This document shows, one piece after another, positions 7,238 through 11,951 of a stretch of DNA of 12,111 nt. Within the stretch, counting starts at the first letter, position 1; each line of letters starts with the position of its first letter. The stretch comes from Bacteroidetes bacterium CG23_combo_of_CG06-09_8_20_14_all_32_9 (GTDB lineage: Bacteria > Bacteroidota > Bacteroidia > Bacteroidales > GWA2-32-17), in assembly GCA_002771395.1 (NCBI GenBank), contig PCSS01000299.1:1-12111 (forward strand), given 5' to 3'. The position numbers and the translations under genes were made by a program. Below the pieces are notes generated by a model. The model made no database searches. It was not told where the DNA came from and saw only the letters and a program-made list of their open reading frames with translations.

Positions 7238-7819
7238 TTACAATTGTTTTAATGCTTGTTTTACAAGTTCTTCGGCAGACATGTCTGCTTTTTCTGCCAA
7301 TAATTTACTGAGTGTTTTTTCGGTAATACTTCTTGAAAAACCTAACATTAACAATGCAGATAACGCTTCATCTCTTATTGTATTGTGTACTCCTGTTAAA
7401 ATTTCTCCTAATGCTCCGGCTTTAGCAATTTTATCGCGTAAATCAACAATTATTCGTTCGGCAGTTTTTTGTCCTATTCCTTTTATTCCTTTAAGCTTCA
7501 ACACATCGCCGCTCATAATCGCTTTCTGAATTTCGTCGGGATTTAACGATGAAAGCATCATTCGGGCGGTATTGGGACCGACTCCGCTAACCGAAATAAG
7601 CTGGCGGAATAATTCCCTTTCCTGACGCGCGTGAAATCCGAAAAAAATTTGTGCATCTTCCCTGACAACATAATGGAGGTATAACATGCAATTTTCGCTG
7701 CCACTAAGCTTGGAATATGTGTGCAACGATATATTGATTAAATAACCAATACCTGCGTTTTCAACAACTGCATAAGCAGGAGTAATTTCGATAAGTTTTC
7801 CTTTTATATATTCATACAT
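7238..7819 (-). CDS. ruvA: Holliday junction branch-migration protein RuvA
   Basis: RuvA is the DNA-binding tetramer that holds four-way junctions open while the RuvB ring motors drive branch migration in recombinational repair. The 193-residue product has the usual length and all three domains: an N-terminal OB fold (about 1-63) carrying the acidic pin E54-D55 in REDAQIFFGF; a middle domain with two helix-hairpin-helix motifs, SGVGPNTA (78-85) and GIKGIGQKTAER (111-122); and after a linker the small C-terminal RuvB-contacting domain (about 148-193). The start is ATG 7819; no upstream extension is needed to complete the OB fold. The stop is followed 18 bases later by the sprA start, the ruvA-sprA order common in Bacteroidota. 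In many relatives a malic-enzyme gene lies upstream; here the upstream neighbour is an unrelated divergent ORF. A degenerate TAnnTTTG-like element (TTTATTTG, minus strand, 7848-7855) could be its promoter, but this is weak. Confidence 0.97.
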   Translation of the reverse strand: MYEYIKGKLIEITPAYAVVENAGIGYLINISLHTYSKLSGSENCMLYLHYVVREDAQIFFGFHARQERELFRQLISVSGVGPNTARMMLSSLNPDEIQKAIMSGDVLKLKGIKGIGQKTAERIIVDLRDKIAKAGALGEILTGVHNTIRDEALSALLMLGFSRSITEKTLSKLLAEKADMSAEELVKQALKQL

Positions 7820-8007
7820 ATTATTGATTTTTTTGTTGAAGAAAACTCAAATAAAGACGAAATATAAAAAACCTGCTAAAGTAGTAAATAAACGCGGTTT
7901 GGCATTGTAATAATAAATTCGTAACAACTAAGCGAGGTTATTGTGTTTATTTATAACAAAATAAATTAACGGAGGCAAAGAAAAAATCGGCGTAATAGAT
8001 AAAATTA

Positions 8008-8367
8008 ATGCTCAAAACATTTGTAACCGTTACAGTAACCGAAGATGGCTGTACCAAAACAGCTCAAGCAACAATATGGGTTTTAAACGGTACCGTCTTG
8101 GAAGAATACACAAAAGAAAGTCTGCAGTTTAATGTTTACCCAAACCCCACAACCGGTGATTTTACTATAGAATGTACCTTACCTCAAAACAAAACCGGAA
8201 AAGTAAAAGCATACCGTAATACCGGCTCACAGTCAGGCGAACACCCATTAGAACCCGGTTACAACAAATTTATTATGCCCGCAGGCAAGTGGAATGAAAA
8301 TGTTATTTTGGTTGGAATTTATATTGAAGGCAGGCAAGTGCCGGTGGAGAAGGTGGTGAAAAAATAA
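8008..8367 (+). pseudogene. Orphan type IX C-terminal sorting domain, probable 3' remnant of a secreted-protein gene
   Basis: The 119-codon ORF opens with FVTVTVTEDGCTKTAQATIWV (residues 5-25), the pattern of the last strands of a PKD or Ig-like adhesin repeat. A linker follows, then YPNPTTGDFTIE (44-55), the hallmark start of a type A T9SS C-terminal sorting domain, ending with a short hydrophobic strand and the basic tail VEKVVKK. Such domains direct cargo through SprA and are cleaved at the cell surface. Here no signal peptide precedes the domain, the ORF begins within an adhesin-like strand, and an in-frame TAG lies three codons upstream. A GGAGG at 7972-7976 is more than 30 bases from the ATG, too far to serve it. 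These points suggest the 3' end of a larger gene left by deletion or rearrangement. An alternative is a genuine small ORF with an unknown role. The sorting-domain identity is firm; the pseudogene status is inferred. Confidence 0.72.
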
Positions 8368-8560
8368 AAAATATCCTTCTTCTTTATCGTTTTAGAAATT
8401 AAAAGGTTAGGGTTAATTGACAAAAAGATACCGTTATTTTTTAACCATATACCCGATAACCTAAACTGTAACAAATCATAACGTGACTTCTAAAAAATGA
8501 TTTTTCTTAGTGCACTTTGAGTCTTTGCTAAATATTTATTTCTTTTTGGTAAGGTGATTA
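8368..8560. other. Convergent intergenic gap with two weak inverted repeats
   Basis: This gap lies between the ends of the sorting-domain remnant and the siaC-like gene. Two structures are visible. The first is a nested pair of arms: AGGTTA 8404-8409 with TAACCT 8457-8462, enclosing GGTTAA 8411-8416 with TTAACC 8441-8446. The second is AAATCAT 8473-8479 with ATGATTT 8497-8503, followed by further T residues. The second could act as a weak terminator for plus-strand transcripts, but its stem is AT-rich and its loop long. Confidence 0.3.
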
Positions 8561-8935
8561 CTAATACCCCACAAAATTAAAATTCAAATCTATTAGTTTA
8601 GAAAAGCGGCTTCCTGATGATAGCATATCTGAATCTTCCTTTTTATAATGCCAATTAATTACTACTTCATGTTCCTTGGCAATATTTTCGAGAATCAACA
8701 GAATTTTAGCAATTTGTTTGGCTGAAGCTGTATTAAAATATTCGAAGGAAAAATCAAAAACCGTCAAATCAATTGGGTTGACAGAATAATCGTTTAGCCA
8801 TTTTATAACCGGTTCATAAAAGCCAATTGCATTTTCGGGAAGTGAACTGGCAGATATTTGAAACAGCCTGTTAGCCGGATCAAACACAATTTTAGGAGTA
8901 TCTTCTTTAGCTTCTATTATAAGTGTTTCGGTCAT
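8561..8935 (-). CDS. SiaC-family (DUF1987) regulatory phosphoprotein
   Basis: This 124-residue protein matches the DUF1987/SiaC family in size and motifs: an N-terminal strand pair with TPKIVFDP (13-20), the block ISASSLPENAIGFYEPVIKWL (27-47), and the core DFSFEYFNTASAKQIAKIL (61-79). In Pseudomonas aeruginosa, SiaC is a partner-switching protein phosphorylated on a threonine by SiaB and dephosphorylated by the PP2C-type phosphatase SiaA; unphosphorylated SiaC activates the diguanylate cyclase SiaD. The likely acceptor here is T69 in YFNTASAK, with S71 as alternative; this is read from the motif and not proven. The start ATG 8935 is one base after the stop of the upstream tandem SiaB-like gene, which implies one transcript and translational coupling. 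Its downstream target is unknown because no cyclase gene is nearby. The protein is cytoplasmic, with no signal or membrane segment. Confidence 0.9.
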   Translation of the reverse strand: MTETLIIEAKEDTPKIVFDPANRLFQISASSLPENAIGFYEPVIKWLNDYSVNPIDLTVFDFSFEYFNTASAKQIAKILLILENIAKEHEVVINWHYKKEDSDMLSSGSRFSKLIDLNFNFVGY

Positions 8936-8936
8936 A

Positions 8937-10064
8937 TTATACTGTAGTTATTACAGTTTGTAAAGAAAAAAACACAGAATCCTGGGCGGTTTTAATAAAA
9001 CTGTACGAAAGAGGATTTCCACTTTTTATCCGTAAATCTATAATACCTAATCCGGCTTTTTTAGAACTGTCTGATTCAAAATTGAAAAGGCACTTGTTAA
9101 AATATTCATCAAGTTTTTCCATGGATAAAGAATTTACATTTTCTAATTTTTTCTTTAGAGCCTTTGTTTTGTTAATATCAACATAATTTCCGGTTATAAT
9201 TGTATATAATCCCTTATTCTCACCTATGATGAATACTCCAGGGACACTATTATGCGAAGAATCAAGAGTATAGCCATGTTTTACTATATTCTGAAGCATT
9301 TCAACAACTATATAAAAAACTTTCTTTTTATGACTAATAGTTCCTTTCATTTGTCCTTCTAAAGAACCAAGTAGAATCATCAAACTTTCCTGATTAAACG
9401 GGCCGTTGGATACCAAAAGAATGTTTTCTTTGTTTAATGTATTGTGAATGTTAATTATGTTATTAAGGCTTTCTTCTTTGTGTTCCAAACTGCCTTCTAT
9501 ACCTTCGAGTGATGGGATTGTATGAAGATAAAAGAATGACGAATCTTTATTTATCCGACTGAAGTGGTAATGTAATTTATTCCCCGATTTGCGTGCCATA
9601 TCTATTAAACCTAAGCCGGCACCACCTTTTGAGGATAAGGAGCCTCCTTCCAAAACTATTTTGTAATAATTCTTTAAATCTTCTTTTTCGAGACTATTAA
9701 TAGTTTCAATAAGCTTCTTTATATAATCTATATTATTGTTCATCACCATGTTACCGGTGGTAATAAAATATTTGTCATCATGTTTTTGTATAACAAACAG
9801 CCCGTTATTGTCGGGCAAATCGTCTTTTATATCATTCTGATGGCGGGTAATATTTTGCAGACATTCTACCAAAATACTGTAAACACGTTTTTTAATTTTT
9901 GAAGATTGCTCTTCCTTTTCAAGCTTATTTTCGGTAAGTGCAAGAATATTATCGGTAATTTCCTGAGTAAATCTGCCGCGATACACATATCCCAGATTAT
10001 CTTTCTGCATAGCCTTAAACAAAATAAAAACAAATCTCAGAAAATCAGTATTATCGGATTGCAT
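8937..10064 (-). CDS. Tandem two-domain SiaB-like (DUF6272) GHKL-fold protein kinase
   Basis: The 375-residue protein is two homologous SiaB-like domains in a row, repeating with a period of 188 residues. Domain 1 (about 1-185) has the N-box VECLQNITRH (66-75; E67, N71) and glycine-rich GGAGLGLIDMARKSGN (147-162). Domain 2 (about 198-373) has VVEMLQNIVKHG (253-264; E255, N259) and KKAGLGIIDLRIKSGN (335-350). Between these boxes the halves also align (FITTGNMV with IITGNYVD; IETINSLEKEDL with LENVNSLSMEKL). SiaB relatives are usually a single domain of under 200 residues that phosphorylates SiaC. Domain 1 looks canonical; domain 2 keeps the Glu/Asn pair but has KKAG in place of GGAG and R-I-K in place of A-R-K, so it may bind ATP poorly or play a regulatory role. 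It is soluble, with no membrane segment. It is the first gene of an operon with the siaC-like gene one base downstream. Family assignment is confident; the division of labour between domains is inference. Confidence 0.88.
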   Translation of the reverse strand: MQSDNTDFLRFVFILFKAMQKDNLGYVYRGRFTQEITDNILALTENKLEKEEQSSKIKKRVYSILVECLQNITRHQNDIKDDLPDNNGLFVIQKHDDKYFITTGNMVMNNNIDYIKKLIETINSLEKEDLKNYYKIVLEGGSLSSKGGAGLGLIDMARKSGNKLHYHFSRINKDSSFFYLHTIPSLEGIEGSLEHKEESLNNIINIHNTLNKENILLVSNGPFNQESLMILLGSLEGQMKGTISHKKKVFYIVVEMLQNIVKHGYTLDSSHNSVPGVFIIGENKGLYTIITGNYVDINKTKALKKKLENVNSLSMEKLDEYFNKCLFNFESDSSKKAGLGIIDLRIKSGNPLSYSFIKTAQDSVFFSLQTVITTV

Positions 10065-10132
10065 AGTTAATTTTTGAAACAGTAAAAATACTAAATTTCA
10101 TACAATTTCTATAAAAAAAAACAACTATAAGA

Positions 10133-10162
10133 AAGTACAAATGTAATATATTTACTGTACTT
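10133..10162. promoter_or_regulatory. Dyad overlapping the candidate siaB-like promoter
   Basis: AAGTACA (10133-10139) and TGTACTT (10156-10162) are perfect inverted 7-mers with centres 23 bases apart, about two helical turns. One half overlaps the candidate -7 element. This layout is what a dimeric repressor operator would look like, but in AT-rich DNA it could arise by chance. Confidence 0.3.
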
Positions 10163-10167
10163 CTAAA
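10138..10167 (-). promoter_or_regulatory. Candidate promoter of the siaB-like/siaC-like operon
   Basis: Read on the minus strand, TACATTTG (10145-10138) matches the Bacteroidota -7 consensus TAnnTTTG exactly. Seventeen bases upstream lies TTTAG (10167-10163), only a rough match to the -33 TTTG. The element sits 73 bases before the start codon. The -7 match is good and the -33 match poor. Confidence 0.4.
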
Positions 10168-10230
10168 AATTGTTTTTTCTTTGTTATGCTTATTTTTCAA
10201 AATTACTCACATATTAATTGTTTTTTAAAA

Positions 10231-10258
10231 GTAGAGACACGCGTCCGTGTGTCTCTGC
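10231..10258. repeat. GC-rich perfect-type hairpin, REP-like palindrome
   Basis: AGAGACACGCG (10233-10243) pairs with CGTGTGTCTCT (10246-10256) with one G-T wobble. Pairing extends outward by one T-G and one G-C pair. The palindrome stands out from surrounding AT-rich DNA. It resembles the dispersed GTAGAGAC...GTCTCTAC palindromes common between genes in Bacteroidota and some other phyla. It is not followed by a T tract, so a terminator role is doubtful. Confidence 0.75.
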
Positions 10259-10335
10259 TCCGGTTTAAAAATCTTGTCCGCCTCGAAAAATCTAATTTTT
10301 AGAACCCCTCTTAATAACTAAAAACAGACAGTATT

Positions 10336-10529
10336 TAACAGGGTAAACGCAGAAGAAACATCCACGACTAAATAAAGACACACAAGAAAATGATTATTTT
10401 AAGGTTGAGAGGAATGAAGGTTGAGGTTGAGAAAAGATTGAGAAAACAAGATTGAAAAAAGATTGATTATGACGAGTTTACTTCAATCTTATCAATCTAC
10501 TTCAATAAAATTCTGCGTTTACCCTGTTA
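10336..10529. repeat. Element bounded by a perfect 19-bp inverted repeat (MITE-like)
   Basis: The left arm TAACAGGGTAAACGCAGAA (10336-10354) and the right arm (10511-10529) are exact reverse complements, 156 bases apart. Similarity continues imperfectly outward for about 14 bases (10322-10335 against 10530-10544). The interior carries no ORF of note. Its middle is purine-biased with repeated GGTTGAG and AGATTGA words (10402-10466), then turns to the complementary TCAATCT words (10483-10507), so the inside can also fold back on itself. This could be a small non-autonomous transposable element or a folded intergenic RNA element. No clear target duplication is seen beyond the terminal TA. Confidence 0.65.
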
Positions 10530-10567
10530 GATAACTGCTATTTCTATTCAGTTCATTAATTTTTAAG

Positions 10568-10600
10568 CTGTCTAACAGGGTTCACCCCGTGAGATAGTTT
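10568..10600. repeat. Third and fourth copies of the TCTAACAGGGT repeat, forming an imperfect palindrome
   Basis: TCTAACAGGGT (10571-10581) is an exact inverse of ACCCTGTTAGA (10521-10531) in the preceding element. It is followed at once by a degenerate inverted copy, CACCCCGTGAGATAG (10583-10597), so the segment is itself a near palindrome with 8 of 10 positions matching. This shows that the 19-bp arm belongs to a small family of repeats rather than being an isolated pair. Confidence 0.6.
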
Positions 10601-10632
10601 GAAAAAAGAGCGAACAATATATAAATAACAAT

Positions 10633-10668
10633 TATCTAATGGGGTAAATCAGCGGTATCAGCGGGAAA
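10633..10668 (+). repeat. Degenerate fifth repeat copy with internal ATCAGCGG duplication
   Basis: TATCTAATGGGGTAAA (10633-10648) is a variant of the TATCTAACAGGGTAAA core. It runs into a directly repeated word, ATCAGCGG, occurring twice (10648-10655 and 10657-10664) before GAAATT. The second part resembles the short (A)TCAGCG/CGCAGAT repeats often scattered between genes in Bacteroidota. Confidence 0.5.
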
Positions 10669-10721
10669 TTGGAAAATAGTATTTTTTACTTGCGGATTTT
10701 AGGTTATAACAGAAAAATAGA

Positions 10722-10748
10722 TTGTTACAAAATTATTTCTTATTTTTG
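10722..10748 (+). promoter_or_regulatory. Candidate promoter of the phosphatase gene
   Basis: TATTTTTG (10741-10748) matches the Bacteroidota -7 consensus TAnnTTTG exactly. TTG (10722-10724) lies 16 bases upstream, one base shorter than the usual 17-23 spacing. The start codon is 36 bases past the -7 element, giving a short leader. No Shine-Dalgarno is seen; the A-rich stretch TAAAAT just before ATG is typical for the phylum. Confidence 0.5.
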
Positions 10749-10784
10749 CTTTATCATTCCTAAATTTTTATTCATCTGTAAAAT

Positions 10785-11951
10785 ATGAAAGAAATTAAAA
10801 TTAAGATATGTGGAATTTTGCCTTTAACTAAGAAACAGTTTATTATAGGTTTTTCGTTTTTTTTCATATTTTTCGTAGTAACAATTATTTCCTTTTATTT
10901 TTTCCCACCCCAAAAATCACCCGAAGAAGCATCATTTCTTTCAAAATTATTTAAAGATTATGGTTTACTAACCTTTTTCTTTTTTTTGATATGGTTGATT
11001 GCAGAAGGAATATTTTACTGTAATAGATTTATTAAAGTCCAATATAAACTGATAGAAGAACAAAAGCACGAAGTTGACATTCGCAATCAATACATCGAAC
11101 AGCACAAAAAAGAAATTATTACCCAACGTGTTAAAATAGAAACTCAACACAATTTGGTAATTGCTCAAATGACAACAATTTCAAACCAAAAAAAAGAATT
11201 GTTAGATAGTATTCAATATGCTTATCGTATTCAGTGTGCATTGTTACCACCTTTTTATTATGTAAATCAATGTATCCCTGATTGTTTTATTTTATATTTG
11301 CCAAAAGCTATTGTAAGTGGTGATTTTTATTTTGTTGAGCAATCGGGCGATTATACCATTGTTGCCGCGGTAGATTGTACCGGGCATGGTGTTCCGGGTG
11401 CTATGATGTCGGTAATAGGTTACGATTTATTAAATCAGGCTGTTAAAATAAATAAAATCACCAAACCTTCAGATATTCTATCATTTCTTGATGCCGGAGT
11501 TACCGATATTTTACGCCAAACACATAACGAAAGCGGAGTAAAAGACGGAATGGACTTGTCGGTTGTAAGCATAGACAGGCGAATGCGAACTTTTGAATAT
11601 GCAGGTGCTTACAATTCAATTTATTTTATTCATAATAAGCAGTTAACCGAAGTTAAATCTGATAAACTTCAGATTGGTGTAAACGAAGATGGAATTACCG
11701 ATGTTTTTACAAACAACGGCTTACCAGTAGTTAAAGGCGACATGCTTTACTTATTCTCCGACGGTTATGCCGACCAGTTTGGAGGTCCCAAGGGGAAAAA
11801 ATTAAAATACAAACAATTTCAAACTATATTAACTGAAATATCAGGTGAAACAGTAGAAAATCAAAAACAATTAATTAATCAGAAATTTATGGACTGGAAA
11901 GGTGAGCAAGAACAAGTTGATGATATTTTAGTTATAGGAATAAGAGTTTAG
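10785..11951 (+). CDS. Membrane-anchored SpoIIE-type (PP2C-like) serine/threonine phosphatase, SiaA-like role
   Basis: The 388-residue protein has a short basic N-terminus, two membrane helices (about 19-40 and 60-79) joined by a roughly 19-residue loop, a coiled-coil stalk (about 82-148), and a C-terminal SpoIIE phosphatase domain. The junction DSIQYAYRIQCALLPP (141-156) is the regulatory helix typical of this family in Bacteroidota. Metal-binding motifs are all present: SGDFYF (178-183, D180), DCTGHGVPGAMMS (197-209, D197), GMDLSVV (255-261, D257), FSDGYADQFGG (324-334, D326) and QVDDILVIG (377-385, D379/D380). The family removes phosphate from serine or threonine of small regulator proteins; the neighbouring SiaC-like protein is the likely substrate. 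It is transcribed away from the siaB-like/siaC-like operon. The outside loop is too short for a folded sensor domain, so the signal would enter through the membrane helices, the stalk or a partner. In the usual KDIVSGDFYW block this protein has KAIVSGDFYF. The phosphatase call is secure; the pairing with SiaC is inferred from proximity. Confidence 0.92.
   Translation: MKEIKIKICGILPLTKKQFIIGFSFFFIFFVVTIISFYFFPPQKSPEEASFLSKLFKDYGLLTFFFFLIWLIAEGIFYCNRFIKVQYKLIEEQKHEVDIRNQYIEQHKKEIITQRVKIETQHNLVIAQMTTISNQKKELLDSIQYAYRIQCALLPPFYYVNQCIPDCFILYLPKAIVSGDFYFVEQSGDYTIVAAVDCTGHGVPGAMMSVIGYDLLNQAVKINKITKPSDILSFLDAGVTDILRQTHNESGVKDGMDLSVVSIDRRMRTFEYAGAYNSIYFIHNKQLTEVKSDKLQIGVNEDGITDVFTNNGLPVVKGDMLYLFSDGYADQFGGPKGKKLKYKQFQTILTEISGETVENQKQLINQKFMDWKGEQEQVDDILVIGIRV

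Follow-up and report, generated by a model that had tools for sequence, protein, structure and literature searches.

Two kinase domains of the SiaB/DUF6272 family are joined in one protein of 375 aa, which is encoded on the minus strand at positions 8937 to 10064 of a 12,111-nucleotide stretch of Bacteroidota DNA (the window, meaning the whole stretch that was analyzed). Judged by the conservation of their ATP-site boxes, the two halves are not equivalent. We propose, with a probability of about 0.58, that this SiaB-type partner-switch kinase is an unequal pair on one chain, with a first half that works as a kinase and a second half that is its diverged partner.

The ORF begins with ATG and is covered by two stretches of PF19788 (DUF6272; whole-protein E value of 1.3e-70, 235.7 bits against a Pfam cut-off of 26.6) and by two stretches of the NCBIfam model NF038262 (SiaB_fam_kinase; 262.4 bits against a cut-off of 85). 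The equivalog model for the biofilm regulator SiaB, NF038264, scored 142.1 bits, below its cut-off of 225. The N-terminal domain (residues 1 to 193; 9486..10064, minus strand), delimited by the alignment of the halves and by column counts in 315 tandem proteins, has a complete G2 box, and the C-terminal domain (residues 194 to 375; 8940..9485, minus strand) has a diverged one. Alignment of one half to the other gave a score of 240, compared with a mean of 37.3 (standard deviation, 6.5; maximum, 69) for 1,000 shuffles (z of 31), and in an ungapped scan of offsets 60 to 329 the offset of 188 alone stood out, with a score of 172 and a next best of 0. These results confirm the two SiaB-like kinase domains in tandem that a first-pass annotation of this DNA had described. 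The "exact 188-residue period" that it also reported holds for the motifs it named and from residue 52 onward, but residues 9 to 48 pair at an offset of 191, with a gap of 3 residues in between. All six residues of its motif pairs (E67/E255, N71/N259, and A149/A337) are as it gave them; A337, however, is no conserved equivalent of A149, which is alanine in 315/315 aligned tandems, whereas the 337 column holds A in 101, T in 78, and S in 66.

Both halves adopt the GHKL fold of Pseudomonas aeruginosa SiaB (PDB 6kko) in structural comparisons with an AF2 model of the tandem (pLDDT of 82.7, pTM of 0.84), the second half included, for which the first-pass annotation had considered that the fold might be missing. 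The same fold is predicted in a relative fused to SiaC (model pTM of 0.72). The pLDDT of the tandem model falls below 50 at residues 144 to 147 and 331 to 337, that is, at both G2 boxes, and the model is therefore no judge of the ATP sites. SpoIIAB and RsbW, the anti-sigma kinases that share the GHKL fold with the tandem halves, are the next structural neighbors. Each of them switches partners in an ATP-dependent manner, the other components being a STAS-type protein and a PP2C phosphatase.

We compared the ATP-site boxes (ExxxN and GxGLG) in 315 aligned tandems and fusions, which are the best matches of two queries together with their loci after removal of duplicates and are not a random sample. 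In the first half, both boxes are complete: the N-box (E67 to N71; 9852..9866, minus strand) and the G2 box (SSKGGAGLGL, residues 144 to 153; 9606..9635, minus strand) contribute, with N105, the residues found in all 315 rows (E67, Q70, N71, N105, S144, G147, G148, A149, G150, and G152), K146 is kept in 310 and L151 in 314, and the GGAGLG run is thus a kept feature of first halves. The second half has its N-box as well (E255 to N259; 9288..9302, minus strand; E255 in 309/315 and N259 in 314/315), along with N293 (315/315) and most of the GLG (304 to 307 rows; G338 in 304 and G340 in 306). Its G2 box is diverged (DSSKKAGLGI, residues 332 to 341; 9042..9071, minus strand), K336 occupying the position of G148 in the first half and so replacing the first glycine of GxGLG. 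That column is K in 127 tandems, E in 65, N in 37, and G in 27, which leaves 288/315 second halves without the first G2 glycine; all but one of the 27 glycine-bearing second halves (26) belong to SiaC-fused proteins. A separate set of 116 rows, which includes the second tandem of the source genome and in which A149 is replaced by serine once, gave the same picture, with glycine at the G148 position in 48/48 first halves, 19/20 non-tandem domains, and 1/48 second halves. Since 19 of the 20 comparison domains keep this glycine, its loss is a property of the second half and not of the family. The second half is also the less conserved one overall (mean identity to the window protein of 0.538 versus 0.676 for the first half), being lower in 119/119 listed tandem relatives. 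This pattern favors a single working kinase accompanied by a diverged partner. Losing one box glycine is not proof of lost activity, and with its N-box, N293, and GLG kept, features that a dead domain could dispense with, the second half may still bind ATP.

Directly downstream of the tandem, with one spare base past its stop codon, lies a gene for a SiaC-family phosphoprotein of 124 aa (8561..8935, minus strand; PF09345, E value of 1.3e-33), which scored 58.3 bits with the SiaC equivalog NF038265, below its cut-off of 150. Alignment to SiaC chains places its T69 (codon at 8729..8731, minus strand) at the phospho-acceptor T68 of P. aeruginosa SiaC, and this position is T or S in all 189 rows that we aligned (132/132 fused and 57/57 separate SiaC). 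Among 80 loci with a tandem, 57 have a same-strand SiaC gene directly after the tandem (at most 94 bases away, in some cases overlapping), 14 have SiaC fused in frame, and 1 has it on the opposite strand; none was found in the remaining 8, one of which is cut by a contig end. A SiaB-SiaB-SiaC fusion used as a query had 2,366 matches, and all 120 that were listed, query included, carry both Pfam families. In the 132 fused rows, 9 to 12 residues separate SiaC from the second SiaB domain, and these fusions have one SiaC per two SiaB domains. Such gene fusion is itself evidence that the tandem acts on SiaC. In a paired covariation analysis of SiaC with each half (189 rows, effective number of 112), within-domain pairs were hardly enriched. 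Four loci (L055, L065, L072, and L075) have one tandem SiaB followed by two SiaC genes in a row, and one of the 14 in-frame fusions (L067:4936-6195), possibly a broken one, has only a stub of SiaC that ends after about 36 matched residues.

The P. aeruginosa kinase SiaB phosphorylates T68 of SiaC, SiaA removes the phosphate again, and it is the unphosphorylated form of SiaC that activates the diguanylate cyclase SiaD (PMC7278518 and the accessible parts of PMC7647112 and PMC8457831). The accessible part of PMC7647112 also reports a 2:2 SiaB:SiaC complex and a requirement of SiaC for ATP use by SiaB. P. aeruginosa SiaB (6kko) has one domain in a chain of 181 residues, whereas the window protein joins two domains in one chain, and the G2 box of the second is diverged. 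As in the SiaABCD system, a SiaC partner is encoded alongside, with the equivalent of T68 present, and the tandem represents a variation on the SiaB switch, not a novel type of system. The SiaB-SiaB-SiaC relatives follow the same logic as Rv1364c, which, in the accessible part of PMC7693655, carries a kinase and an anti-sigma-antagonist domain on one chain and is reported to phosphorylate its own antagonist domain. According to that same part, Rv1364c differs in also having a sensor and a PP2C phosphatase and in the one GHKL domain named for it, against two kinase domains in the tandem and a phosphatase encoded elsewhere. In the literature that we searched, consisting mostly of non-subscription papers and lying outside the main SiaB-SiaC structure paper, we found no description of the tandem.

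A candidate for a SiaA-like partner is encoded on the plus strand at 10785..11951, diverging from the tandem at 720 bp from its start. This PP2C/SpoIIE phosphatase (PF07228, E value of 3.6e-16) has hydrophobic N-terminal stretches, read by eye, and matches the C-terminal part of SiaA (NF038263; E value of 2e-52; 178.7 bits, below the cut-off of 700). The source genome contains 21 SpoIIE match rows, which makes the identity of the phosphatase partner unsure.

The tandem is a real, conserved architecture and is not peculiar to the source genome. A search with the full-length protein returned 2,065 matches of 206 to 656 aa at an E value of 1e-10 or better; among the best 120, 119 have 350 to 399 residues and one has 313. 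In a scan of contigs, at least 533 stretches encode a relative, and the 80 loci kept from these, all with a tandem-length match (from query residue 19 or lower to 369 or higher), were labeled Bacteroidetes, Bacteroidia, Bacteroidales, Salinivirgaceae, or Marinilabiliales, with a few Chlorobi/Chlorobiota and some named by genus. Across the phylum, 18 of 296 sampled genomes (source included) have DUF6272 above the cut-off; counted by frame length and with seven below-cut-off rows excluded, they hold 22 single-domain frames, three tandems (two of which are in the source genome), a frame of 627 aa, and a broken gene. Within the order, 89 of 198 genomes (source included) have DUF6272, and the best 150 matches, which come from 77 genomes, comprise 104 frames of single size, 35 of tandem size, 10 of about 500 aa, and one of 722 aa, as sorted by length and not domain by domain. 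A tandem or larger frame occurs in 36 of these 77 genomes (source included), and 27 have both sizes, among the matches listed. By these frame-length counts, tandems are in the minority across the phylum sample and occur regularly within this order; the view of the first-pass annotation that SiaB is normally a single-domain protein agrees with the 22 single-size versus 3 tandem frames, and the alternative that it had raised, that the tandem might be the common form in the phylum, does not. Six genomes (G311, G331, G350, G356, G364, and G460) have 17 to 19 DUF6272 matches each, a tandem counting twice, which is a large expansion of the switch. Elsewhere, a 625-residue frame (L019 in G160:C121) appears by eye to combine a receiver, a PP2C phosphatase, and a SiaB-like domain; a profile match (DUF6272) backs the SiaB part alone.

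The source assembly (74% complete, 400 contigs) contains a second tandem on contig C41, 38% identical to the first, and a single-domain copy on C163. Its three SiaC matches each directly follow one of these three SiaB genes, the one on C41 being cut by the contig end. We built a careful tree from 34 domains of each kind (N halves, C halves, and single domains); relative to a quick tree of 116 rows, 35 rows that were near-copies or long branches, including P. aeruginosa SiaB, were dropped and 21 single-domain proteins were added, and the tandems in both trees were hand-picked from lists. The N halves formed one group (support of 100/97) and the C halves another (90/61), with the second tandem of the source genome included (98 and 54, respectively, in the quick tree). 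This grouping suggests a single origin of the tandem that predates the spread of the relatives sampled. The split that the first-pass annotation had wished to date with such a tree thus appears ancient, and a recent duplication in this lineage was rejected, as even the genome's own second tandem has its halves grouped separately by N and C. The N halves join single-domain proteins of the class (98/85). A tree with N and C halves placed together was not rejected (p-AU of 0.246), so that duplication and fusion of older paralogues are both possible origins. Two loci (L142:480-2066, confirmed with Pfam, and L141:358-1979) have SiaC preceded by a pair of unfused single-domain SiaB genes; as direct precursors of the tandem they are not supported, their SiaB genes falling among the single-domain proteins.

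The first-pass annotation suggested that the fused pair could act as a built-in dimer or bind two SiaC molecules. Part of this stands, in that two SiaB domains do share one chain, but the halves are unequal. If both were active kinases, each binding and phosphorylating one SiaC, the tandem would be a covalent SiaB homodimer; the E/N box of both halves, the GLG of nearly all second halves, the GHKL fold on either side, and the 2:2 stoichiometry given for P. aeruginosa in the accessible part of PMC7647112 fit such a symmetric arrangement. It is nonetheless unlikely, given that the first G2 glycine is absent from the second half in 288/315 tandems versus 1/20 comparison domains, that the second half is the less conserved, and that the fusions offer a single SiaC to two SiaB domains.

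Two further possibilities concern what the altered domain, or the whole chain, might do instead. The second half could be a nucleotide sensor whose noncatalytic binding of ATP or ADP gates the first half allosterically, the tandem thereby reading the energy state of the cell; the conserved N-box, N293, and GLG, together with the only partial loss of the G2 box, are consistent with this role, which we regard as quite improbable. It is also conceivable that neither half is mainly a kinase and that the tandem is a scaffold sequestering SiaC, as anti-sigma factors do with their partner. SpoIIAB and RsbW, to which its halves are structurally close, are indeed partner binders as well as kinases, but the invariant boxes of the first half and the conserved Thr/Ser acceptor of SiaC are what a kinase-substrate pair would keep, and we hold the scaffold to be very improbable indeed.

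With the first half working and the second as its diverged partner, the arrangement that we favor, the first half would bind Mg-ATP and phosphorylate Thr69 of the neighboring SiaC. The second half would stand in for the second subunit of a SiaB dimer, keeping SiaC in register with the first half, and may weakly bind nucleotide or sense it. The phosphate would be taken off SiaC by a PP2C phosphatase, perhaps the product of 10785..11951, and unphosphorylated SiaC would then act on an output. In the many relatives with SiaC fused to the chain end, kinase and substrate would form a fixed 1:1 module, being on the same chain. As for the output, GGDEF domains had no match on the contig of the window (C253) or in seven related genomes (sharing with the source its genus in one case, its family in one, and its order in five), so that the known SiaABC output was not found in 7/8 genomes searched; one partial match on contig C32 leaves room for a cyclase output in the source genome. 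More tentatively, and at somewhat less than even odds, the kinase-pseudokinase chain could be a basic building block of an extensive partner-switch network in Bacteroidales-type bacteria, which have up to 19 SiaB-domain matches per genome and little sign of diguanylate cyclases in the few genomes examined. Its fullest form, with SiaC fused, would be a self-contained switch in which phosphorylation is controlled in cis by the degenerate half.

Known from work on biofilm control in a single pathogen, the SiaABC switch has spread and multiplied in uncultured Bacteroidota. The architectures that we saw range from a single SiaB, through two SiaB genes with SiaC and a tandem SiaB with SiaC, to all three domains on one chain, and this range opens to experiment the question of why two subunits are needed in a dimeric switch kinase, because one half is naturally fixed in an altered form.

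A scan of positions 7800 to 10900 gave 17 promoter-like sites (14.4 expected) and 2 terminator-like sites (1.2 expected). On the opposite side of the locus from the phosphatase gene are ruvA and a frame of 2,406 codons that is open at the window edge. An ORF of 119 residues at 8008..8367 (plus strand) has a weak match, below the cut-off, to a type IX secretion tail and is preceded by in-frame stops; it is perhaps the remnant of a gene for a secreted protein.
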